Source: Candidatus Krumholzibacteriota bacterium
GTDB taxonomy: Bacteria; Krumholzibacteriota; Krumholzibacteriia; JAJRXK01
DNA: 64,000 nucleotides
Reading direction: 5' to 3'
Assembly: GCA_029262065.1 (NCBI GenBank)
Contig: JAJDAC010000027.1
Coordinates: 372,001 to 436,000, forward strand
In this document: piece by piece, positions 26,483-63,885 of the stretch
Layout of the letters: each line of letters opens with the position of its first letter
Numbering within the stretch: position 1 is the stretch's first letter
Notes under the pieces: generated by a model
What the model saw: the letters and a program-made list of their open reading frames with translations, nothing else
What the model was told of the DNA's origin: nothing
Database searches by the model: none
Made by a program: the position numbers and the translations under genes

Positions 26483-27304
26483 TTATGGGTCCCAAGTCAG
26501 ACGAATCGAATAGATGGGTCGCCCATCGGAGACTACCTCTAGAGTGTGGGCTCCAACCAAAGGGCCATCTGTAGAAGGCACGATCGAAAATGCGGGAATG
26601 AGCCCGGTTTCGCTTGATGACTCCAGGAACTGCGACCAAATCAGCCGGCCTTCCGAATCCAACAATCGTGCGGTCACCGCGACCTCGTCATCGATCGGCA
26701 GGCTGGGTAACTGAAACAGCTGGGCTATGTTGTCGCGCTGCTGCGGAACGTTGACCTCGCCTGCAGAGCCCCGAGACGACGAGGGCAGCTCAATCGTAAC
26801 AGGATCGGGAGAACTCCATGGCCCGAGAAAAGCGATCAATAGGATCGCAGCTAGGCTGAGCGCAGACGCGCCACCGAACGTCCAAGTTCGAAAGAACGGG
26901 GCCTTAGGCTGCGCTTCATCGCGAGAAACGCTGGAGGCCGGGGGTTCCAATTCAAGCATCGGCGATTCGAGGTGAGGAACTTCGGACAGAGTTGGATCGC
27001 CACCTTGATTTGCGACAACGCGACGGCAACTAGCACATTCCTCAAGATGTTGCCTGACCCCCAGGCGCTCTAGGCCAGCTAGTTCGCCCGGCTCCCATGG
27101 CACAAGCAGACTCTTGGGTATGTGCGGTGTCCCCATGGTACGAAAGTGCTCAGCTTTGGCGTCAAAGCGAGCCGCTAACTCGCGGTAAGCCTCTTTGGAC
27201 TCGAGTAGGCGTTCGACTTCTAGGCGATCCGCATCGTCCAGCATCCCTAGCCGAAACAGCGGGAATACTGAGGCGAACCAATCTTGTTTTGCCTCATTAC
27301 TCAT
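26483..27304 (-). CDS. Membrane anti-sigma factor (zf-HC2-like) with periplasmic beta domain
   Basis: 273 residues. The cytoplasmic N-terminal half contains a zinc-finger-like H-x3-C-x2-C (HLEECASCRR, about residues 85-94) as in anti-sigma factors. A membrane helix (FGGASALSLAAILLIAFLGPW, about 143-163) is followed by a periplasmic beta domain (VAVTARLLDSEGRLIWSQFLESS; THTLEVVSDGRPIYSIRL type). It overlaps the ECF sigma gene upstream by 8 bp, so sigma and anti-sigma are co-translated. It probably sequesters that sigma factor until an envelope signal or proteolysis releases it. Confidence 0.78.
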   Translation of the reverse strand: MSNEAKQDWFASVFPLFRLGMLDDADRLEVERLLESKEAYRELAARFDAKAEHFRTMGTPHIPKSLLVPWEPGELAGLERLGVRQHLEECASCRRVVANQGGDPTLSEVPHLESPMLELEPPASSVSRDEAQPKAPFFRTWTFGGASALSLAAILLIAFLGPWSSPDPVTIELPSSSRGSAGEVNVPQQRDNIAQLFQLPSLPIDDEVAVTARLLDSEGRLIWSQFLESSSETGLIPAFSIVPSTDGPLVGAHTLEVVSDGRPIYSIRLTWDP

Positions 27305-27854
27305 TGTCGTCTCTCAAGAAGATCATTTGGTCTTCGAACCAGTCTCTATCGACCTTCAGCGCTTCCTCGAGGTAGGACTTACAACGCTTCCATCGTTTGC
27401 TGGCGTCGTTCGCCGATATTCCCAGCTGAGAGGAGATTTCGACGAACGTGACATTAGGGTCAAGGTAGGCGACTAGAAGTTCTGAACAGGACCGATTCAC
27501 GCGTTGTTTGTCATGGTAGCGGAAGAACGTTTGTACTTTGAAGAGCCACCGGTCCCAAAGATCTTCGTAGTCGGGAGGCTTCTTGCTTGCCACTTGTGCT
27601 GACTGCTCCTCTGGAACAGTCTCGATGCGCTTGGCATCCAGGTGGTCTTTGATTGAGCATTGCGCAGCTTTGTAGAGCAAGCCGTGCCAGTTGCGCGCGG
27701 TTTCGCCATAACGAGCTGCCATGTCCACGGCCCGCACGCATGCGTCCTGGAACACATCGTCGACATCGCTAGGGGGGATCTTTTGCCGAACCAAGTTTCG
27801 GAGGTATGCCAGCCGATCGGGGGTTGTCCAGCTTTCATCTGCAGGTCGCGGCAT
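27297..27854 (-). CDS. ECF-type RNA polymerase sigma factor
   Basis: 185 residues starting at an ATG with GGGGAGA 6 bp upstream (a GTG at 27887 is less likely). Region 2 is RLAYLRNLVRQKIPPSDVDDVFQDACVRAVDMA...NWHGLLYKAAQCSIKDHLDAKR; region 4 is SCSELLVAYLDPNVTFVEISSQLGISANDASKRWKRCKSYLEEAL. It is co-translated with the anti-sigma gene and divergent from a TPR-CHAT lipoprotein gene 92 bp away, suggesting that this CHAT gene is a target. Confidence 0.85.
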   Translation of the reverse strand: MPRPADESWTTPDRLAYLRNLVRQKIPPSDVDDVFQDACVRAVDMAARYGETARNWHGLLYKAAQCSIKDHLDAKRIETVPEEQSAQVASKKPPDYEDLWDRWLFKVQTFFRYHDKQRVNRSCSELLVAYLDPNVTFVEISSQLGISANDASKRWKRCKSYLEEALKVDRDWFEDQMIFLRDDNE

Positions 27855-27878
27855 CGAGATCTCCCCGGGGTGGGATTG

Positions 27879-27888
27879 AGTGTACACT
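27879..27888. promoter_or_regulatory. Palindrome in the sigma/CHAT divergent promoter region
   Basis: AGTGTACACT is a perfect 10-bp palindrome midway between the divergent ECF sigma and TPR-CHAT genes. It is a candidate operator serving both; no promoter hexamers are clear. Confidence 0.3.
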
Positions 27889-27945
27889 AGAGATCAATTC
27901 CGTCTCGCTAGAGAAACGTCTCCGTCGAAGGCAAGGAGTGACATT

Positions 27946-30861
27946 TTGAGATGGCCTGATTGGCACGCATCAACCCCCCCGATTTTGGCTGTCTTGGTCG
28001 GGGCACTTCTCTGCGTGAGCTGTGCACCCGGTGACAACGGCTCGGCATGGGACGCCGTCGAAGATCCAGCCACGGAGTTTTCCGAGCTTCTGCTCACACT
28101 TGCTGAAAATCAAGACCGGGAACGGATCGAGAAAGAGACTGACGCGTTCCTCGACTGGGCAGGCGGCCAGGACGATATGGGCCGGGCGTTAAAGGCTGCG
28201 GGCGAGGCTGCTGCGGAAAGTCCCGCCTGCTGGCCCGCGTCTTTTCGGCTCCTGGAGTTGGCCACCATGCAGTTGGAGAAGGAGCAGCTGTGGGTTGATG
28301 CCTGTGACGCGGCATCGAGTGCGTCTTCGCTAGCCAACTTCCTCGGCAACCCAGTGAACGAGATAGCGATGTCGCGGCGAGCACTCTCTCTTGCGCAACG
28401 GCGCGCTCCCGAGAGCGCAGATGACTACATGAAGGAGCTCGGCATAAGTTTTGTCAATGCTGGCGAGGCAGACTCAGCTTTCGTTTACCTTGAGCCGCTT
28501 CTCAAAGGCAAAGATGTTTCGCCGAGTAACTTGGATCTGGCGAATGCGCTGGCCGAAGCGTATCGCAGGCGTGGAGACTACGCCGCATCAATTGAACTCC
28601 ACAAGCGAGTTGCGGCTGTATCGTTGGCCGACCCAAGTTTGGTTGCCTGGGAGGCCTCCGCGTACAACAACATCGCCGGAATCCTAGTCGATCAAGGTGA
28701 CTACTTTCAGGCCGGCGACGTTTTTCGCCAAGCCGCCCAATGCTGGACTGCCGTGGCCTCTGACTACAGCATTAGCTACGCCACTACGATGTTGAATCTC
28801 GCCGAGATTGCGCGAGCTTCGGGCCGTCCTCGGCTAGCCCTAGCGGAACTGAACCGCTGGGAAGAGTTCGCCCAAAGTGAGGGACTACCAATTGGACATG
28901 ACATCTCAACCTGGTTCGCGATTTGTAGAGCGCGGTGCCAAGCGGACCTTGGTGAGGTCGAGGCCGCACTGCAAACCCTTCAGCATGCGGCGTTGCGAGA
29001 ACTTCCCATGGTTGGCGAGACGCGATGCGCCTTGCTCCTTGAGTTGATGCGAATTGCGAATGGTGAGGGTGAATATGGTATCGCATCCGATGCTGTCCTT
29101 GAGATCGAGTCGCTTGGAACGCACGTTACGCCACGCCAGTCGCTCGATGCCAACCTGTTGGCCGTAGAGGCCCACCTTGGAAACGCCGACGTCCCCGCCG
29201 CTCAAGACGCCCTGAACAGGATCGAACGAGATCGTGAGAACCTAGATGGTTTTCCTGGGGTTCGGTCCCACTACCTGTTGGCCAAGTCTCGGGTTCTTTG
29301 GGTGTCTGGGAATCGCGAGGCAGCGTTCATGGTAGCGAACGACGCATTCCGGGCTGCGCTGAATACAGTCCATCTCGTAGAGGGATCTCCATATTCGATC
29401 TCGAGTTTTGTTGATCGCTTCCGAGATGTGTACGAGCATCTTATGGACTTGTCCCATGCGCTTGGGCGGCCCTACGAGATGCTTGAAGCCAGCCAAGGTT
29501 TTTCGGCGGGAGCACTTGCAATCTCGGCTTGGCGACCACGGAACTATGAGGTCTCGGTGGAACAGGAGCAACGCTCCAGGCTCATGCTGAGGCGAAGGAG
29601 TCTCGAAACCACAGAGATCAATCCAGGGGAACTGGAGGCCGTTCTCGACTCACTTGGGGTGTTGGAACTCGAGGCCACCAGAAGGCAAGCGAGACTGGGA
29701 TCCACGGATGCCACGTCTGTTTCCTGGCAATCTCCACCGCCGCTAGATTGGCGCGAAGAGCATCGTCGGGCACGAAGTAAGCGGGCGGTGGTTCTCAGCT
29801 ATACGATCGGATCTCACGCCTCTTCGGTTGTGGCCTACGGGTATGGCTTCGAGAACCCGGAAGTGTACGAGTTGGTTTCCGGGCCGCATTCCAAAGATGG
29901 TAGCAGAATATTTAGCCGTGCTGAGTTGCGAGTCTTGGTTTCAGCTCTCTATCCGACACCCGGAATGCCGGGGTCAGAGATCGACACTGTGCCCGAACGG
30001 CAGCAGCTATTCCATGCCCTTGTGCCTTCGGCACTCACAACCAAACTGAGAGACGCCGCACGAGTTCTGATACGACCGGACTTTGGAATGGAAGCTATCC
30101 CTTGGGCGGCGCTCATTGTTCCGGCGTCGGGGAAGCGCTGCTGGCTAGATGAGTTCCCGCCAACGGCACTCTACTTTCCCGTTGCGAAATCGGCAGCTAG
30201 CGAAAAGTTGCCCGGAAAGATGTCCGTGCTCAGTGTGGCCAACCCAGACTTCGGGTCGGCCCTTGCTCCTTCGGGCTCAAGGCAGACCCTTGGACCTTTG
30301 CCCCACGCAGAGCGCGAGTCCGAGTACATCGAATCCGTATGGCCGGGGACTGTGGAGCGGCTCAGTGGTTCCGATGCCACCGAACTCGCGGCACGAGAGC
30401 TCATGCGCGACGGTTTCGATGTGTGGCATTTCGGGACTCATGGTGTCTACAGGCGAATCGGAGACACCATTGACGCATATGTGGCGTTAGCACAGTCCGA
30501 GGGTGCTCGATTACCTCAGGCCGATGGCTACTTGGAGATTCACGAAATACTTGGTTTGAACGCCGAAGGACGGTTCGTGGTGTTGGCGGCATGTCAAACC
30601 GGCCTGGGGGATTGGAATGCTCCGATTGGTGCTGTCACACTTGCGCGTTCGTTCTTGTCAGCTGGCGCAGCTGGGGTCTGTAGTGCCCTGTGGACTGTTG
30701 ATGATCGGGGAATGTCTGAGATTGTATCGGGGATGTTTGAGGGCGCCGCGAAGGGGAGCGACTGGCTGGATGCTCTCTGGGAACACCAGCGTGGAGCGAG
30801 AAAAAGGCAAGGAGATTGGGGCGTATGGGCGGCGGTTATGATCTCAACTTCCCAAGTGTGA
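27946..30861 (+). CDS. TPR-CHAT lipoprotein (caspase-like peptidase), CHAT copy 1
   Basis: 971 residues from a TTG with AAGGAG 8 bp upstream. This start gives a neat lipoprotein signal (PPILAVLVGALLCVSC, Cys about 26). Residues about 70-480 are TPR-like helical hairpins (LANALAEAYRRRGDYAASIELHKRV; YNNIAGILVDQGDYFQAGDVFRQAA). The C-terminal 300 residues are a CHAT domain with WHFGTHGVYR (His about 832) and VVLAACQTGLGDWN (Cys about 883), so the caspase-type dyad is intact; SFLSAGAAGVCSALWTVDD is the usual post-catalytic motif. It would act on the periplasmic side. Divergent from an ECF sigma/anti-sigma pair. Peptidase targets unknown. Confidence 0.87.
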   Translation: MRWPDWHASTPPILAVLVGALLCVSCAPGDNGSAWDAVEDPATEFSELLLTLAENQDRERIEKETDAFLDWAGGQDDMGRALKAAGEAAAESPACWPASFRLLELATMQLEKEQLWVDACDAASSASSLANFLGNPVNEIAMSRRALSLAQRRAPESADDYMKELGISFVNAGEADSAFVYLEPLLKGKDVSPSNLDLANALAEAYRRRGDYAASIELHKRVAAVSLADPSLVAWEASAYNNIAGILVDQGDYFQAGDVFRQAAQCWTAVASDYSISYATTMLNLAEIARASGRPRLALAELNRWEEFAQSEGLPIGHDISTWFAICRARCQADLGEVEAALQTLQHAALRELPMVGETRCALLLELMRIANGEGEYGIASDAVLEIESLGTHVTPRQSLDANLLAVEAHLGNADVPAAQDALNRIERDRENLDGFPGVRSHYLLAKSRVLWVSGNREAAFMVANDAFRAALNTVHLVEGSPYSISSFVDRFRDVYEHLMDLSHALGRPYEMLEASQGFSAGALAISAWRPRNYEVSVEQEQRSRLMLRRRSLETTEINPGELEAVLDSLGVLELEATRRQARLGSTDATSVSWQSPPPLDWREEHRRARSKRAVVLSYTIGSHASSVVAYGYGFENPEVYELVSGPHSKDGSRIFSRAELRVLVSALYPTPGMPGSEIDTVPERQQLFHALVPSALTTKLRDAARVLIRPDFGMEAIPWAALIVPASGKRCWLDEFPPTALYFPVAKSAASEKLPGKMSVLSVANPDFGSALAPSGSRQTLGPLPHAERESEYIESVWPGTVERLSGSDATELAARELMRDGFDVWHFGTHGVYRRIGDTIDAYVALAQSEGARLPQADGYLEIHEILGLNAEGRFVVLAACQTGLGDWNAPIGAVTLARSFLSAGAAGVCSALWTVDDRGMSEIVSGMFEGAAKGSDWLDALWEHQRGARKRQGDWGVWAAVMISTSQV

Positions 30862-55689: not shown

Positions 55690-57912
55690 CTACTTGACCA
55701 GAAGCATCTTTCTCGCGGTTTCACCGTCGGTCGTGGTCAGGCGATAGAAGTACGTGCCCGAACTCACATGCTGCCGCTGTTCGTCCAGTCCGTCCCACGT
55801 AACGGTATGTTCGCCGGCGGAGAGTTCACCTTCCACCAGGGTACGCACGAGTGCACCGCGCAGGTCGAACACCGCCAGTCGAGATGGTCCCCTCGTGCCC
55901 ACGTAGAACGAGATGTTCGTCTTGGGATTGAACGGATTGGGATGATTCGCATCCAGGCGCGAAGCGCGGGTGGGCAACGTGGTTCCCGTGGGCTCATCGC
56001 CGGGCCGGGATTCGTCATCTTCAGGAAAGCCGGGAAGCTCGGGCAGTGCGCCCGGCACGGGCTTCAGAATGACGACCATCTCCACGTAGGCTGGCGGTAG
56101 GAGCACGCCGGGAATTTCCATCGTCAGCGTGGATCCGCAGTTGCACCCAACGAATCCGTTGAAGTAGGCGCAGGCCGGCACGATCCACTCGTGCGGGTTG
56201 GGCGACTGGAAGTCGGCGCAGTTGCCGGACTCGCAATCGACCTCGCAGCTGTTGGGCCCACCGGTGGGGATGACGTTCAGGTCGACGATCTCGCTGGCGA
56301 CCATGAGGCCGTCCACGAGGACCTGGGCTTCGAACGAAAGGTCGTGGAACTGCGTGGGGTCGCTGACCGCGGCGTATGCCTCGAACGCTATGTCCGCGGC
56401 GCCGGTGCCGTTAGGTGTGACCTGTACATTGCGTACGCCCCGGTTCCATCCCGACGGGATTCCGCCGAATGTGGTTTGAAGCGTGTCGTCGGTCGTGTCC
56501 AGCTCGGGCGCGCCACGATCGGTCCTTACGAAGGACACGCTCAGTTCATCACCGGGATTCAGGTCGATGCCGGGAAAGTTCGGCGCCAACCAGTAGCCAC
56601 AGTCGCAATCGGCTCCACCGGGGCCCACGCCATCGAGCTTGCATAGCATGGTGTTGAATACGCCGTCGATGTACATGGGTCCACAGTTCGACCCGCACGA
56701 AGATTCGCAGCTCAAACCCGGGCCCAGCGTCGCGGCCTCGATGACGATGGGCAGCCCGGTGGGGATGCCGTTCACGGAAAGCTCTACTTGGCCAGACAGG
56801 TCCAACGTGCCCTGTGTGCCGTCCACTTCGATCGCCAACACGGGGTTGACGTCCCACTTGCCAGGTGCAGTTTCACTGCGGGCGACGCCAATGGAATGCA
56901 CGCGGCGGTTCCATCCCCCGCCGCCAGAAGGATCGTACTCGACCGTGAGTTCTATCCAACCCTTGTGGGGATCGCTGGCGGGTTCGGGAACGCTGCCGGG
57001 TACGGGTCGAAGTATGACTTCCACTATGTCGCCGGCGCCGGCACCAGGGTCGGGAAATTCCGACAGGATCCAGTAGCCGCAGTCACAATCCACGCCGCCG
57101 CCGGGGATCTGCCCGTCGATCTTGCACGTCATGGTGTTGATCACGCCGTCTACGTACAGACCGCCGCAGCCGCCGCCACAATTGGATTCGCAGTCACCGC
57201 CACCCAAACCGTCATAGCGTAGATCGATCAAGTCGGAAGCCACGGCTACGCCGTTGACCCGTAGTTCTATTTCCATATCCAGGTCCAGGGCGTAGTCGCC
57301 TGAAGCACCGATGTTGCTGACGATCAGGTGTCGATTGGCGCCCCCGGTGGTCTCCGGGGGGAGAACGGCCACTTCCCGAAGCTCTCGCTTCCAGGTGTGG
57401 GGGCGCCCATCGAACACGTGCCGGGCCAGGTCGTTGGACGTATCGATCTCCGGCATGGAAGTAGTCGTGGGAAACACGCGCAGATCAAGTGCGTCTCCTG
57501 GCTGCAGGTTCTCACCGTCGAAGCCGGCCGTGAACCAGTAACCGCAGTCGCAGTCACCGGGACCGTCTTCGTGGCAGGTCATGGTGTTGATAACGCCGTC
57601 GACGTACAGGCCGCCGCAGCCTTGGCCGCAGTTGAACTCGCAGCTCCCCTGCGGACCGTCGGTTTGAATACTGATGATGCGGCGGGGGCGACTGGTGCCG
57701 TTGACACTGAGTTCGAGTTCCAGGGACAAGTCGATGGGGGCACTGCTTCCACTGGCGTGGATGTCGAGCAGGCCAATGATCGACCAACCCCCCGCGTCGT
57801 CCGGTTGGACGGCCACCTCACGGACGGATCGATCCCACGTGCCCTGGGAAAGGGCCGGGCTCGAGAACAGCAGTATCAAACCGCATATATATAGAACCGG
57901 AATGACTCGCAT
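55690..57912 (-). CDS. Surface protein of four Cys-rich repeat modules with sorting tail
   Basis: 740 residues from an ATG with AGGAGGT upstream. Signal peptide RVIPVLYICGLILLFSSPAL. Four modules of about 140-170 residues follow (starts about 24, 175, 335, 490). Modules 1-3 share W.R.VR...V (opening), a central C.S/F.NCG..CG.LYVDGV.NTM.C..DG and DCDCGYW, then a LxPGD and V.R...V.E/P section. Module 4 has a modified Cys set. The four end in the usual FlgD/T9SS tail (NHPNPFNPKTNISFYVGTRG, LAVFDLRGALVRTLVEG). I do not recognise the module. The eight-odd cysteines per unit suggest a disulfide-stabilised binding fold. Confidence 0.8.
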   Translation of the reverse strand: MRVIPVLYICGLILLFSSPALSQGTWDRSVREVAVQPDDAGGWSIIGLLDIHASGSSAPIDLSLELELSVNGTSRPRRIISIQTDGPQGSCEFNCGQGCGGLYVDGVINTMTCHEDGPGDCDCGYWFTAGFDGENLQPGDALDLRVFPTTTSMPEIDTSNDLARHVFDGRPHTWKRELREVAVLPPETTGGANRHLIVSNIGASGDYALDLDMEIELRVNGVAVASDLIDLRYDGLGGGDCESNCGGGCGGLYVDGVINTMTCKIDGQIPGGGVDCDCGYWILSEFPDPGAGAGDIVEVILRPVPGSVPEPASDPHKGWIELTVEYDPSGGGGWNRRVHSIGVARSETAPGKWDVNPVLAIEVDGTQGTLDLSGQVELSVNGIPTGLPIVIEAATLGPGLSCESSCGSNCGPMYIDGVFNTMLCKLDGVGPGGADCDCGYWLAPNFPGIDLNPGDELSVSFVRTDRGAPELDTTDDTLQTTFGGIPSGWNRGVRNVQVTPNGTGAADIAFEAYAAVSDPTQFHDLSFEAQVLVDGLMVASEIVDLNVIPTGGPNSCEVDCESGNCADFQSPNPHEWIVPACAYFNGFVGCNCGSTLTMEIPGVLLPPAYVEMVVILKPVPGALPELPGFPEDDESRPGDEPTGTTLPTRASRLDANHPNPFNPKTNISFYVGTRGPSRLAVFDLRGALVRTLVEGELSAGEHTVTWDGLDEQRQHVSSGTYFYRLTTTDGETARKMLLVK

Positions 57913-58070
57913 TGCAGTTACCTCCTCATGGGTTATCGCTGTTCCTGAGATCACCCTGGAGATGCCGCCCGAACCCCGGTTGCTGCAGACAAATCGATGG
58001 GAGAGCATTTTTTTTCACATAGTTGTATCAATCACCACCCCGAGGGCCCCTCTTTCACCAGGAGGACACC

Positions 58071-58643
58071 TTGAAGCAGAAACGTGAACAGGCAGCGAAG
58101 CCCGAGCCCTCCAACGAGAGTCTCCTGACTCGTTGTGCGAACGGCGATGATGGCGCCTGGGCTCACCTGGTGGATCGGTACAAGCGACTCGTGTACTCGG
58201 CCATTCTGGGCTTCGGCCTCTCACCTGAAGACACCGCCGATGCTTTCCAGGATGTGTGGATCGAGCTACACCAATCCGTACATCGAATTCGGCAGCCGGA
58301 GGCGCTGGCCACGTGGCTGTTGGTGTGCGCGCGCCGCCGTGCCTACAAGCTTGCAACCAAGCAGCGGGCGAGGACGATGTGCGGTCTAAGCGAAACGCTC
58401 ATCGATCCGGGTCAGGCTCCTTCCGACGCTATCGAACGTGAGGACCGCCGACAACGAATCGAGCGTGCGCTCGTGCGCATCGGTGGCATTCAAGCCGAAC
58501 TGTTGCGACAGCTGTTTCTTACCGAACCGCGACCCTCCTATCAGGAAATTGCCAAGCGCTCGAGCATAGCGCAGGGCTCCATTGGGCCACTGCGCGCTCG
58601 CGCTATCGCTCGTCTCCGACGAATTCTCGAAAAGGAGGCATGA
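58071..58643 (+). CDS. ECF-type sigma factor, head of the CHAT-subtilase operon
   Basis: 190 residues. Start is a TTG with AGGAGG 5-6 bp upstream. Region 2 is LTRCANGDDGAWAHLVDRYKRLVYSAILGFGLSPEDTADAFQDVWIEL...WLLVCARRRAYKLATKQ; region 4 is LLRQLFLTEPRPSYQEIAKRSSIAQGSIGPLRARAIARLRRIL. The stop overlaps the next gene. The pair of helices and spacing are those of RpoE-like factors. It lies 158 bp from the divergent Cys-rich surface gene, with no clear promoter motif. Confidence 0.87.
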   Translation: MKQKREQAAKPEPSNESLLTRCANGDDGAWAHLVDRYKRLVYSAILGFGLSPEDTADAFQDVWIELHQSVHRIRQPEALATWLLVCARRRAYKLATKQRARTMCGLSETLIDPGQAPSDAIEREDRRQRIERALVRIGGIQAELLRQLFLTEPRPSYQEIAKRSSIAQGSIGPLRARAIARLRRILEKEA

Positions 58644-59095
58644 TGTCAGATCGACACGATCAATCCGGCACCGATCGGCATCTCGAAGACCTTGCGTCAT
58701 ACGCCAAGAACCGCCCAACCGACCTTTGCGCTCCGCGTCCCCGGTGGCTGATCTCCGCGCCCCAACGTCCGGAGGACGTGCGCGGTGACGATGCATCTTC
58801 CTCGTTGAGCCCGCGCACGTTTGCATATTCGTTTCCCGATCTGGATGTGGGTCTCGAAGTCAAACCTCCGCTTGGGCGCGGCCTATGGAACATCAAAGGA
58901 AAGGTGTATGTAGCATCGCCAGAAGATCAGACGGTATCGGTGTTCCTGATCGAGGACGATCACGTACTCGCAAGCTCCGGGGTTGCCGACGGCGGCGACT
59001 TCTCCATGGAAGAGCCCGCGAGTTTTGACTGGCATCTGGAGTTCCATCTGCCCAGTGGCAGCGCGATGCGCGTGGATTGTCCATTCCAACCATGA
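58640..59095 (+). CDS. Unrecognised 151-residue protein between sigma and CHAT genes
   Basis: Two ATGs (58640, 58643) overlap the sigma stop and have GGAGG upstream. The N-terminal 60 residues are polar (HLEDLASYAKNRPTDLCAPRPRWLISAPQRP) and the C-terminal half is beta-rich (GLEVKPPLGRGLWNIKGKVYV; TVSVFLIEDDHVLASSGVA; FDWHLEFHLPSGSAMRVDC). No signal peptide, membrane helix or zinc finger is visible. Its stop overlaps the CHAT start (ATGA). By position it may regulate the sigma factor or be the CHAT substrate; neither is shown by sequence. Confidence 0.75.
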   Translation: MMSDRHDQSGTDRHLEDLASYAKNRPTDLCAPRPRWLISAPQRPEDVRGDDASSSLSPRTFAYSFPDLDVGLEVKPPLGRGLWNIKGKVYVASPEDQTVSVFLIEDDHVLASSGVADGGDFSMEEPASFDWHLEFHLPSGSAMRVDCPFQP

Positions 59096-61791
59096 TAGCG
59101 CCTGGAGACTTCGAAGGCGCCTACGGCGAAGCTCTTCGCTTGGTAGAGGTCGCGCCAGATCGCGCTTTGGCCCGGGTCTCGCGATTCGGTTCGGAGCGCG
59201 GCTCCGAACTGGATACCGCTCAACACGCGCGGCTGCTTCGGCTCGAAGGACACTGCCGACTTCGGCAGGGGCGTTTTGGTCTGGCATCTGAACTGTACGA
59301 GTCTGCATTTGATGCTCAGGTTGCCGGCCACTTGAAAGAAGACGCGGGCCGAACCACGATTGCCTGGGTGGAAGCGCTCTCGCTTCACGGTTCCTTGACC
59401 CAGGCTCGTGCGGTGGCCGCCAAGGGAAGTCGCTGGATTCCGTCGGCCGACAAGCGTGCTCGGGGAGCATTGGCGACGAATCTGGGCAATGCCTACCACA
59501 ATGCTTATGACTACGTGCGAGCGCGGCGGTGCTATCGGCGTGCGTTGTCGTTGCTTGGCGAAGCGGGCGATCCTGGCGTATTCGCCCAGTACGGTTTGGC
59601 CATGGTCGATCTGCGCGAAGGGCATCTCTCACCGGCGCAATCTGGATTCGACCGCTGCATTCTGGACATGCAGGTCTTGGGGGCTACATCGTGGCAACAC
59701 CGCCCCGAGATTGGTCTTGCCACCATCGAGATCTATCGCGGCGACTGGAACGCGGGGCTGCATCGCCTCGACGCGGCGCGAGCGGTGTGCAAGCAGTCCG
59801 GCGATCAGCGAGCCCTGGCGCACATCGAGCGCGAGTCGGCCGAGCTGTTCGGTGCCCTGGGCGCTGAATCCCTGGCCATTCGTTCAGCCCTTCGGGCCTA
59901 CGGAATCTACGAAGACCTTGGGTTGAAACATGAAATCGCCGAATCGGCGTGGCTTCTCGCGCGTCTTCTCGCCACACAGGAATCGTTGGTCGACGCCGCC
60001 ACCTATCTGGAGAGGGCTCGAACGGTCTGGGCCTCGCTTTCCAACCACCGTGCTGTGTGGCGTGTGGCGTTGGAGGAGCAACGGCTGCTGATCGAAGTGG
60101 GTGCCCGTCAGAGCGTGGCCCCCACGCTGAGTCGATTGCAGATCCAGCTGGATCGCAGCGAGCCGAACGGGCTAGGGGCGGTTTGCCTTGCTCTGCGCTC
60201 TCGGGACCATCTCGAGAATCGTCGACTGGCGCATGCGATCCGTTTTGCCAAGCAAGCGCGTCGCAGAATGTCGACGGGTCGACATCGGGGTGAGCGGCCA
60301 AAGTTGGCTCTGGTGGTGGCCCGTGCCTACCAGGAGCAAGGTCTCAGGGCCAACGCGCTTCGTTGGTTGCGAACCGGAGTTGATGAGCTGGAAGTCGAGT
60401 TGCAGCAGTTTGGCGACGTGGCGTGGCGTCACGAGGTACCTGGCGCCCGGGATCCCATCTACGACACGGCCATTGAAATCCTGCTCAAAAGTGATTCTCC
60501 GGCGGCGACCTGCGCCGCGGTCAACCTGTTCTCGCGGGCTACTTCTCCGGCACTGCTGCACCAGCTCCTTTCCTCCGATGTCATGCCTCAGGTCCAGGGT
60601 CTGCGGGCGGCGTTGGATCGCTTGCGTGGCCGCCTGCTTCTGAATTCAAGTGACGACGACGGGACGCGCGGTGCTCACTTGCAGCGCGAGGCAGATCGCC
60701 TCGGAAGGAAGCTTCGGCTGGCTCTGGCTTCGAACTCGATCCACGGGGCGAAGTTGGACTCCTTGCGCGGTCTACAGGGATGGCAGGAAAAACTCGGGAG
60801 TGGTAGCAGCGTTGTAATGTACCAACGCCACGTTGCCGGGTGGCGCGCATTTCACATAACCCGAGATGGGGTGACCCGGGTTGCTCTGCCGTTAGCGGAA
60901 GCTGCCGTGGCGGAGCATGGACGTTCATTGCACCTGGTCATGGAAATTCTCGCCAGCGCGCCACCCTCACGCCGAAAATCGCTTCTCGATCGTACGCGCA
61001 ACGATGCTGCGAATGCTCTGAAGGGCCTCCGGGTCGCTCTTTGGGACCCCTTGCAAATAGAGTCGGGCAGGGTGGCGATCGTGGCCGACGGTGAGTTGCA
61101 CGAAACGCCGATCGAGAGCCTCGTCGATGGTGGTGGGAGCGGCATGCTTGGTCCGATCACCACTCGGGTGAGTCACCCCTCGTATCTGTTCGCAGCAAAT
61201 CGTGCACCCGCAAGCAGTGGTGATGCCGTTCTTCTTCACGGAGGAACCGCGGGCGCGCAGCATGAACTGGACGTCGTGCGACAAATCCTGCGAGCGTCGG
61301 AGCTTACGGTCAGAAGAACGGCCCAGTTCGATCAGCCAACCAAAAATGAATCGGCGCCCGCCGTGTTGCACGTGGCGGCGCACGGTGTGATTCACCGGAC
61401 CGAGCCCTACTTGTCGGGCTTGCAGCTTGGCCAGAGCTGGCTAGGGGCCGAAACCATTCGAAGCCGCCAGCTCGCGGGCAGTCTGGTATTTCTCTCCAGC
61501 TGTAGCTCTGGATGGTCGCGCCGTCTGCCTGGGCGCGAACTTCACGGCTGGATGAATCCGGCTCTGGCGTCGAAGGCTACGCAGGTCGTGCTGAGTTCGT
61601 GGCGTATTGATGACCATGGAGCAACCGCGTTTGCCCGCGAGTTCTATCGATCCTGGGCCCAGCATCGAGACGCGGCCGCCGCCGCGGCCGACGCGCGCCG
61701 GGCGCTGATCGCCGCGGGACACCACCCCTACACCTGGGCCGGCTTCCAGATAACCGACCTCACCAAATTCTCCTGCACGCCAAGTTCCTGA
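59092..61791 (+). CDS. Cytoplasmic TPR-CHAT protein (caspase-like peptidase), CHAT copy 3
   Basis: 899 residues from an ATG overlapping the previous stop by four bases. No signal peptide. TPR-like hairpins fill residues about 5-450 (ATNLGNAYHNAYDYVRARRCYRRALSLL; YGLAMVDLREGHLSPAQSGFDRCIL). The C-terminal CHAT domain has VLHVAAHGVIHR (His about 764) and VFLSSCSSGWSRR (Cys about 804); QVVLSSWRIDDHG and HHPYTWAGFQITD follow. The Cys motif SSCSSG is more divergent than in copies 1 and 2, but the dyad is intact. Followed after 24 bp by a subtilisin gene. Confidence 0.87.
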   Translation: MIAPGDFEGAYGEALRLVEVAPDRALARVSRFGSERGSELDTAQHARLLRLEGHCRLRQGRFGLASELYESAFDAQVAGHLKEDAGRTTIAWVEALSLHGSLTQARAVAAKGSRWIPSADKRARGALATNLGNAYHNAYDYVRARRCYRRALSLLGEAGDPGVFAQYGLAMVDLREGHLSPAQSGFDRCILDMQVLGATSWQHRPEIGLATIEIYRGDWNAGLHRLDAARAVCKQSGDQRALAHIERESAELFGALGAESLAIRSALRAYGIYEDLGLKHEIAESAWLLARLLATQESLVDAATYLERARTVWASLSNHRAVWRVALEEQRLLIEVGARQSVAPTLSRLQIQLDRSEPNGLGAVCLALRSRDHLENRRLAHAIRFAKQARRRMSTGRHRGERPKLALVVARAYQEQGLRANALRWLRTGVDELEVELQQFGDVAWRHEVPGARDPIYDTAIEILLKSDSPAATCAAVNLFSRATSPALLHQLLSSDVMPQVQGLRAALDRLRGRLLLNSSDDDGTRGAHLQREADRLGRKLRLALASNSIHGAKLDSLRGLQGWQEKLGSGSSVVMYQRHVAGWRAFHITRDGVTRVALPLAEAAVAEHGRSLHLVMEILASAPPSRRKSLLDRTRNDAANALKGLRVALWDPLQIESGRVAIVADGELHETPIESLVDGGGSGMLGPITTRVSHPSYLFAANRAPASSGDAVLLHGGTAGAQHELDVVRQILRASELTVRRTAQFDQPTKNESAPAVLHVAAHGVIHRTEPYLSGLQLGQSWLGAETIRSRQLAGSLVFLSSCSSGWSRRLPGRELHGWMNPALASKATQVVLSSWRIDDHGATAFAREFYRSWAQHRDAAAAAADARRALIAAGHHPYTWAGFQITDLTKFSCTPSS

Positions 61792-61815
61792 CCTCGTATT
61801 TCGGAAGGATCACCC

Positions 61816-63078
61816 ATGCGCATGCTTCTAACCCTATCTGTTCTCATGTTGACCCTTGGCTGTGGAGGAGTCGCCAGCGACCGACCCGAGCATCCCACGG
61901 CACCCAAGTCGATAGAGCAGCATCCCGGCAGCGGAGGAGTGGGTTCTATTCCACCGGAGCTGGAGCAGCTGTTTCCGCCGGACCAGGATGTCTACGTCGT
62001 CAGGCTTGCCCAGGACGCGAACGCGGTCACGGTGGCCAGTGAGTTGGGCCTACCATTGCTGGACTCGATAGCGGCCAACTACGCGTTGATGCAGGGTCCC
62101 GCCGACCCCAGCACCATCTTGGCTCATCCGGCCGTGTTGGATGTGGAAGAAAATCTCATGATGCAGGTGGCCGACGGTCAGGACCTCACCATGGGCTACC
62201 TGGAAGAAGACTTTGATCCGTTTCGATTGGTTGATCAGGCTGCCTTGCGAACCCTGAGAAGAAATGAATGGCCGGAGGGAGCGACCGGAGAGCGTCGCAC
62301 GGTTGCAGTGCTGGATACAGGCGTCGATCCCGATCACAGCCTATTTGCTGGACGATTGGTTCTAATACCGGAGACTTCCATGCTTACTTCCATCGCCGTG
62401 GCCGAGGGCATCGATGAAGATGGCGACGGACTTGTAGATGAAGGCGTGCACCACGGCACGCATGTGGCCGGCATCGTCGCGCAGGTTGCCCCGGACGCGA
62501 AGATCCTGCCGGTGCGCGTGCTCAACAGCGACGGGTTTGGATCGATCTACGACATCGTTCGGGGTCTGATGTACGTAAGGGAATTTGTAGGTGATCACGG
62601 TGGCATTGATGTCGTGAATCTCAGTCTTCGACTGAGCGCTTCGTCGTCGCTGTTCGATCATGTCATGGAACAGCTGACTGGTCAGGGCATCGTCGTCGTG
62701 GCGGCGGCCGGAAACTCCGAGCAGAGCGCCCCGTACTATCCGGCTTCATCGCAGTGGTCCACTGGTGTCTTGGCTACCGACAATCTCAATGCGGCCGCCG
62801 ACTTTTCCTGTGTAGGACGCAGGGTATCCATTGGGGCTCCAGGTACCGGCGTACTCAGCGCCATGCCCGACGAGAAGATGGCGGGGTTGAGTGGCACGTC
62901 CATGGCCACACCGGTCGTCAGCGCGCTTGTCGTGGTTGTACAAGAGTATTTCGATTTGTCAGCCTTCGCGGCCAAGGACTTCCTGCTTGCCGGCGGCTTT
63001 CCACTCGAGCAGACCAAGCATAGCGCGTACGGTCGGGCTGACCCATTTCGCACGTTCCAGAACCTGATCACACCGTAG
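61816..63078 (+). CDS. Subtilisin-like (S8) serine protease lipoprotein
   Basis: 420 residues. Lipobox MLTLGC (Cys about 16). An I9-like propeptide (about 55-115: DVYVVRLAQDANAVTVASELGLPLLDSIAANYALMQG) precedes the S8 domain with AVLDTGVDPDH (Asp167), HHGTHVAGI (His213), VVAAAGNSEQ (oxyanion Asn) and SGTSMATPVVSA (Ser362). All residues needed for activity are present. It would be anchored in the envelope. GGAAGGAT lies before the ATG; the 24-bp gap to the CHAT gene makes a shared mRNA likely. Confidence 0.92.
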   Translation: MRMLLTLSVLMLTLGCGGVASDRPEHPTAPKSIEQHPGSGGVGSIPPELEQLFPPDQDVYVVRLAQDANAVTVASELGLPLLDSIAANYALMQGPADPSTILAHPAVLDVEENLMMQVADGQDLTMGYLEEDFDPFRLVDQAALRTLRRNEWPEGATGERRTVAVLDTGVDPDHSLFAGRLVLIPETSMLTSIAVAEGIDEDGDGLVDEGVHHGTHVAGIVAQVAPDAKILPVRVLNSDGFGSIYDIVRGLMYVREFVGDHGGIDVVNLSLRLSASSSLFDHVMEQLTGQGIVVVAAAGNSEQSAPYYPASSQWSTGVLATDNLNAAADFSCVGRRVSIGAPGTGVLSAMPDEKMAGLSGTSMATPVVSALVVVVQEYFDLSAFAAKDFLLAGGFPLEQTKHSAYGRADPFRTFQNLITP

Positions 63079-63099: not shown

Positions 63100-63126
63100 G
63101 GCCTCGGCGGATTTTCCGCCGAGGCC
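63100..63126. terminator. Bidirectional hairpin between S8 and CARDB genes
   Basis: GGCCTCGGCGG and CCGCCGAGGCC form a perfect 11-bp stem with an ATTTT loop between two convergent genes. No T tail on either strand. Confidence 0.6.
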
Positions 63127-63145: not shown

Positions 63146-63742
63146 CTAGCACTTGCAAGCGGTTACGATGGTGACGTTGTTGTTCTCTTTCGCTTCCACC
63201 ACGGTGTTCAGGCGATCGACCCAAGCCCCGACCTGAACGATCGAGCAACTGCCCGTACCGCCGCACGGTCCGGGGTAGTACGGATAGCTGATCGTCTGCG
63301 ATCCGCCGGCCGGAAGCTGCACGGGGATCAGAAGGTCGCCCAGGTTGCCGCCGGCCACGGACATGCTCAGGTGCGTCGTGTTCCTGGGCACCGCCGTGCC
63401 ACCGCGATTCGTCACCGTGACCTGGAAGAAGTACTGGGTGCCGCACTGGATTTCGAGCAGGGTGGGCCCGCAAAGACTGGTAGTCGATGACCAGGTGACG
63501 TTGGAAACCACCAGGTCGGGAAGGGCCAGCGAAGGTCCGCCGCCGTACGGCGGGACGTTGGGGTGAGGATCTACAGTGATGGTTGGGGGCGACTTCGCTG
63601 CCACGGTCTCTTCGGCAACGGGCTTGGGCGCCAGGGGACTTTCGGTGTCTGTGTCGCCACACGCCTGAATTGCGAAGAACGCGCCCGTCAAGAGTGACGC
63701 ACACAATACACCGCGCGCGATGGCCTGGAATTTCCGGCTCAT
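63146..63742 (-). CDS. CARDB-domain lipoprotein
   Basis: 198 residues. Lipobox FAIQAC (Cys about 28), an Ala/Pro/Glu spacer, then one CARDB (Ig-like) domain: LPDLVVSNVTWSS, TQYFFQVTVTNRGGTAVP, IPVQLPAGGSQTISYPYYPG, VDRLNTVVEAKENNNVTIV. CARDB modules are cell-adhesion or binding domains. Cysteines at LCGP, IQCG, PCGG, GSCS and CKC could pair. Converges on the S8 gene; its relation to that operon is uncertain. Confidence 0.82.
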   Translation of the reverse strand: MSRKFQAIARGVLCASLLTGAFFAIQACGDTDTESPLAPKPVAEETVAAKSPPTITVDPHPNVPPYGGGPSLALPDLVVSNVTWSSTTSLCGPTLLEIQCGTQYFFQVTVTNRGGTAVPRNTTHLSMSVAGGNLGDLLIPVQLPAGGSQTISYPYYPGPCGGTGSCSIVQVGAWVDRLNTVVEAKENNNVTIVTACKC

Positions 63743-63885
63743 ACCGAATACCTCCGGTTGAATGGTCGATCTAGCAAGGAAGAGCGACCGCGCGGTGCAC
63801 TCGTATCAAGAGAGGACGCGAGTCGTGCTCCTGATACAGATTTGTGCGCCGGCGCCCGGGTTGGTCGATTGCGGGCATACAAAAT

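Follow-up and report, generated by a model that had tools for sequence, protein, structure and literature searches.

The window, a stretch of 64,000 nucleotides from a Candidatus Krumholzibacteriota contig, carries on its + strand a four-gene operon coding, in this order, for an ECF-type sigma factor, a protein of 151 aa, a TPR-CHAT peptidase and a subtilisin-family (S8) protease. The sigma/151-aa and 151-aa/CHAT junctions are 4-base ATGA overlaps and the CHAT and S8 genes are separated by a gap of 24 nt, coordinates and junctions that agree with the earlier note on this DNA. The features of the operon are as follows:

58025–58051, + strand: GTATCA-N15-GCCCCT, a bipartite element resembling a promoter, ahead of the sigma gene and putatively used by the sigma factor
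58071–58643, + strand: ECF-type sigma factor, 190 aa (Pfam Sigma70_r2, 9e-12; TIGR02937; ECF sigma chains in the PDB by profile)
58640–59095, + strand: 151-aa protein, probably a reduced, soluble anti-sigma-like regulator (family membership, position behind sigma)
58769–58786, + strand: codons of P44-E-D-V-R48-G49, where CHAT is predicted to cut after R48 (D-[VIM]-R-[GAS] motif of the linker)
59092–61791, + strand: cytosolic TPR-CHAT peptidase, 899 aa (Pfam CHAT, 5e-28, and TPR)
61816–63078, + strand: S8 (subtilisin-family) lipoprotein with prodomain (Pfam Peptidase_S8, 2e-33)
63100–63126, + strand: perfect 12-bp hairpin after the S8 gene, terminator-like, without a clear T run (55-base region, −29.3 kcal/mol)

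The terminator-like hairpin was taken as the operon end. Upstream, the divergent neighbour (55690–57912, − strand) codes for an exported 740-aa protein in which Cys-rich CDCGYW units are repeated and the C-terminus is a FlgD-like sorting domain.

The sigma gene has a TTG start, with an AGGAGG ribosome site 5 nt upstream. Its product matched the NCBIfam model TIGR02937 (sigma70-ECF) over residues 29–185 with 74.4 bits (cut-off 42.9) and is an ECF factor by the domain test (sigma2 and sigma4 only, ECF model matched); a profile search of the PDB likewise retrieved ECF sigma chains.

No family in Pfam, NCBIfam or PADLOC was matched by the 151-aa protein, which belongs to a family of 15 soluble members with a flexible N-terminal part and an Ig-like beta domain (residues ~59–146). 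The AlphaFold2 model, built like the others on few sequences (3–4 in general, 3 for this protein, leaving aside homologues known from genome searches only), shows eight strands forming a beta domain from residue ~59 onwards (pLDDT ~90), preceded by an N-terminal third with little structure; a fold search with it gave generic beta-sandwich matches of weak significance (E 0.007 and worse), from which we claim no homology. Near the N-terminus, before the Ig-like beta domain, six of the 15 members carry the zinc-finger anti-sigma (ZAS) motif HxxxCxxC. RsrA (0.015–0.028) and a general anti-sigma model (0.00085) were matched here weakly but at the correct position, and one family member matched Pfam zf-HC2 (0.018), all zinc-finger-type profile scores of the family being below curated cut-offs. 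Two further anti-sigma-like proteins encoded next to sigma genes were also matched, in their zinc-finger part, by the N-terminus of the family profile. The motif and its zinc ligands are absent from the remaining nine members, the window copy among them; since the latter is the most reduced of all and has lost its zinc finger, its predicted binding to sigma is the least certain.

Between the two parts of the regulator lies a linker of low pLDDT and otherwise variable sequence, in which all 15 family members have D-[VIM]-R-[GAS]; for the four most distant regulators the alignment leaves the linker Arg ambiguous, and it was not counted there. D46 and R48 are invariant among the first eight regulators aligned. 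With its invariant Arg in front of a small residue, this flexible linker offers a candidate site of cutting by a clan CD peptidase specific for Arg, or the invariance could instead reflect structure or a contact with sigma. The earlier note had offered the 151-aa protein as a sigma regulator or a CHAT substrate: the former is favoured by the ZAS motif in the fuller homologues, while the invariant linker Arg makes the latter possible, with cleavage a prediction.

The third protein comprises a TPR solenoid (~residues 5–440) and a CHAT domain (~646–887; Pfam 98.8 bits, cut-off 24). The earlier note had described an intact His/Cys dyad and no signal peptide, and H764 and C804 are indeed invariant in 13 homologues, with neither a signal peptide nor a hydrophobic membrane segment in the protein. 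When a profile of the CHAT region was compared with solved structures, Csx29 chains were the best match (2.7e-6), followed by separase (0.007); Csx29 and, weakly, separase are the only clear solved relatives of the domain. Separase cuts after Arg. The AlphaFold model of the full protein has confident TPR helices (pLDDT ~90) and a CHAT part of low confidence, and its fold matches were mostly TPR proteins and some separase; it was therefore dropped as a guide to the CHAT domain.

The S8 protease (Pfam 116 bits, cut-off 21.8) holds up equally well as the intact lipoprotein that had been read from it, with its triad D167/H213/S362 invariant in 12 homologues and a lipobox (LTLGC), which is likewise conserved. 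Its prodomain/protease junction carries the motif DLTMGYLEEDF (residues ~124–134), which in relatives reads D-L-T-[MF]-G-F-Y-E-G-[DE]-W and also occurs in S8 genes outside the operon.

With the 151-aa protein as query, seven further copies (27–36% identity) were found in the bacterium's own genome (G000; 5.77 Mb in 59 contigs), all with a sigma gene directly upstream; at six of these seven loci a TPR-CHAT gene follows the regulator directly and an S8 lipoprotein gene lies beside the set. Among 80 genomes of the phylum, the regulator family is restricted to the family to which this genome belongs (f1), in which three loci were found in G007, two in G008 and one in G009, with a like gene set except that the G009 locus has no S8 gene nearby. 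The named relatives are Candidatus Krumholzibacteriia/Krumholzibacteriota MAGs, and one further locus occurs in a MAG labelled Gemmatimonadetes HKST-UBA01. The earlier note had named the lack of a conserved neighbourhood in related genomes as evidence against its reading; the neighbourhood is conserved at 15 loci (8 in the own genome, 6 in family relatives, 1 in the other MAG) from several genera, and the gene set recurs far beyond chance. Wherever the sigma gene is readable it adjoins the set, the regulator gene being directly 3' of it at 14 of 14 loci (at L035 sigma is cut by a contig end, and this locus was left out of the count), in line with the proposal that the set carries its own sigma factor. 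The homologues of the 151-aa protein, collected for co-occurrence as the earlier note had suggested, have a TPR-CHAT gene adjacent at 14 of the 15 loci and an exported S8 lipoprotein gene at 12 of the 14 with a readable flank. The latter lies within the operon or is oriented divergently (L015) or convergently (L011, L014), and L010 has two S8 genes; locus L012 consists of sigma and regulator (with a DIRS linker motif) only, without CHAT. Eight of the ten closest S8 genes of the own genome sit at sigma/151-aa loci. A more distant genome of another family (G006, f3) carries at L081, at low sequence similarity, the series S8, sigma, a 213-aa zinc-finger regulator and CHAT; the S8 protein there is exported without being a lipoprotein.

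In the CHAT tree, the window copy groups with G007:C6 (support 0.92), L015 with L033 (1.00) and L011 with G008:C173 (0.97), and the orientation of the S8 gene is kept in the first two pairs, not in the third. As orthologous pairs extend across genera, the paralogues are, on this tree, old and do not stem from a recent expansion. Within the own genome, pairwise distances correlate between sigma and CHAT (r = 0.82, p = 0.001) and between regulator and CHAT (r = 0.58, p = 0.04) and not between sigma and S8 (r = 0.01). Distances of sigma and the 151-aa protein correlate weakly (r = 0.28–0.30, p = 0.03–0.13). Judging from these distances, the core is sigma-regulator-CHAT, with S8 more loosely attached.

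The own genome holds 32 CHAT genes, several of them adjoining ECF sigma genes, as well as many S8 genes, and other arrangements of such genes were also observed. A protein-kinase-like gene stands between sigma and CHAT in some of its cassettes (L045, L050, L052), and at L039 (G000:C17) and L082 (G007:C62) two sigma genes surround S8 and CHAT, one of them followed by a zinc-finger regulator. The window itself has a second sigma/zinc-finger pair on the − strand (zf-HC2 at 26483–27304, weak Sigma70_r2 at 27297–27887), divergent from another TPR-CHAT gene (27880–30861), with an 8-base overlap of the starts.

No hexamer is more enriched than GTATCA ahead of the family's sigma genes (5 of 13; p = 2e-6, uncorrected for the 4096 words), and GCCCCT or a near variant follows exactly 15 nt later in the window (58025–58051) and at L013 (as GTATCC), L015, L033 and L034. 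Both the sigma and the S8 gene have the GTATCA-N15-GCCCCT-type element at L015, L033 and L034, the last being the tree sister of the window locus. The element also precedes S8 genes outside the operon (L044, L045) and some exported lipoprotein genes, and at L032 GTATCA-N15-GCCCTT stands upstream of an exported protein; among the loci checked, it is absent from the sigma genes of L012, L014 and L037 and from the S8 genes of L011, L014 and L037. The form GTATCARA-N13-GSYYHT has six matches in the 5.77 Mb of the own genome vs. none for the reversed pattern, all on contig C27 (L015 sigma, L015 S8, two other S8 and two lipoprotein genes). The looser GYATCA-N15-GCCCYT has seven matches in G007, of which four fall at the loci's sigma or S8 genes, but its control has four, so that this form is only partly specific. 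The odds of 20 (p = 5e-6) that a Fisher test gives over the predicted genes overstate the case, as the pattern was partly defined on the genes where it was later found. At L062 (1613–2618), the first of two tandem genes for small exported Cys-rich proteins (KKCSATFTCV..., KKCSRTFTCV...) lies behind a GTATCA element, and in the window two facing GTATCA sites (GTATCA...TGATAC, 63803–63837) lie upstream of a CARDB lipoprotein gene (63146–63742, − strand).

The best explanation for this gene set, to which we give about an even chance, is a self-contained cytosolic proteolytic switch of sigma, 151-aa protein and TPR-CHAT with the S8 lipoprotein as output. The soluble 151-aa protein would hold the ECF sigma inactive until the TPR part of TPR-CHAT senses a partner or signal and activates the peptidase, which would then cut the linker after Arg48 (D-V-R|G), part the sigma-facing N-terminus from the beta domain and so free sigma. 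Free sigma would transcribe its own operon and exported lipoproteins via the GTATCA-N15-GCCCCT-type promoter, the S8 protease probably being the chief of these and acting at the envelope or cell surface. As the regulator is soluble, intramembrane proteolysis is not an obvious route of release, and the gene next to its own codes for a cytosolic peptidase. There are precedents for such a step: Csx29 cuts Csx30, which inhibits CASP-sigma (PMC10028731), and CalpL cuts CalpT, releasing CalpS (PMC11417357). The earlier note had envisaged a two-compartment protease cascade with S8 as one of its steps. Given that the orientation of S8 shifts, that the same element precedes S8 genes outside the operon and that S8 distances do not track those of sigma, S8 looks like an output of sigma rather than a cascade step, and we rejected it as an obligatory one; of that earlier reading, the sigma-regulator pair and the conserved set stood and the S8 step did not.

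Zinc-finger anti-sigmas of the RsrA type respond to redox without proteolysis, and the 151-aa protein might accordingly control sigma directly as a sensor, a partner-switch or a redox zinc-finger anti-sigma, with CHAT as a co-regulated effector peptidase that cuts other proteins after sigma activation. The six members that keep the ZAS motif and the L012 pair without CHAT speak for such direct control, but the motif is lost in nine of the 15 members and the linker D-x-R-[GAS] in none, and CHAT distances track sigma more closely than regulator distances do; we consider this alternative rather unlikely.

A defence or abortive-response module, in which TPR-CHAT senses an invader and turns on sigma, with S8 and other exported proteins as effectors, seems improbable to us. 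CHAT, TPR and ECF sigma are indeed components of conflict systems that have been described or predicted (PMC10028731; PMC8195603, EACC2 with ECF sigma), and weak PADLOC matches were obtained (CHAT to BovA 4e-7; S8 to a subtilase model 2e-18 and to IetS 3e-7); however, the part of the neighbourhoods scanned showed no recognisable cas gene or other gene of known defence function, a plasmid search gave no match, the paralogues are old with orthologous pairs across genera, and the predicted targets are exported lipoproteins. With so many CHAT and S8 genes in one compact genome, unrelated genes could also have come to lie together and the element could be fortuitous, but the four gene families are found together in several genera and, at low similarity, in one other family (G006), and most of the closest S8 genes sit at these loci, so that mere co-location is very hard to credit.

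The switch proposed here is most like Craspase (Csx29/Csx30/CASP-sigma), which also joins a TPR-CHAT peptidase and an ECF-type sigma with a sigma-binding protein cut by the peptidase, and Csx29 chains are matched by our CHAT profile. To our knowledge, control of an ECF sigma by TPR-CHAT is so far known only from type III-E CRISPR, and among the papers searched none joined CHAT, anti-sigma and ECF outside CRISPR. Craspase differs in that Csx30 is ~565 aa long (vs. ~150–210 aa here) and in that no Cas7-11 or CRISPR was recognised beside our loci, in whose gene maps no candidate effector stood out; here, the cleavage motif is expected to be different, an S8 lipoprotein is added and there are many paralogues per genome. 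The Csx29 NCBIfam model scored 11.2 bits on the window CHAT (cut-off 300), and up to E = 1 the 151-aa family profile matched no PDB chain, including such Csx30 structures as are deposited. By analogy, the cassette would work like the Craspase output arm, and it is not a member of that system, because no homology to Csx30 was detectable and no CRISPR effector was recognised nearby in the gene maps.

In CalpL/CalpT/CalpS, a cytosolic protease likewise cuts a soluble anti-sigma and releases an ECF sigma, but that protease is a Lon with a SAVED sensor responding to the CRISPR signal cA4 instead of a TPR-CHAT (PMC11417357). The EACC2/TRADD-N systems (Kaur et al. 2021, PMC8195603) combine a caspase-like peptidase, an ECF sigma and a TPR protein in one neighbourhood, with TPR and peptidase in separate genes and with EACC2 and DUF1822 domains, none of which was matched here. 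The ZAS/zf-HC2 anti-sigmas (RsrA) share HxxxCxxC with six of our 15 regulators and the gene position directly downstream of sigma, whereas here a soluble beta domain is added, the zinc ligands are lost in the window copy and scores stay below curated cut-offs. In sigmaE/RseA/DegS-DegP, too, an ECF sigma is set free by proteolysis and has an envelope protease among its outputs, but RseA is a membrane protein cut by regulated intramembrane proteolysis, whereas our regulator is soluble and its candidate sensor protease lies in the cytosol.

Going further, and only tentatively, the loci, found in a little-known group of environmental bacteria, may represent a free-standing, Krumholzibacteriota-type family of caspase/separase-like sigma switches, in which TPR-CHAT peptidases would cut dedicated soluble anti-sigmas after a conserved Asp-x-Arg and each paralogue would have a sigma factor and a surface-protease regulon to itself. 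The Csx29/Csx30/CASP-sigma cassette could have been recruited from a non-CRISPR module of this kind. CHAT proteins have, as far as we know, few known substrates, though their genes are numerous (32 in this genome alone). If true, such an independent circuit in many copies would assign these orphan CHAT proteins both a substrate and an output that can be read, open the origin of Craspase to testing and provide parallel sets of protease, substrate and promoter.
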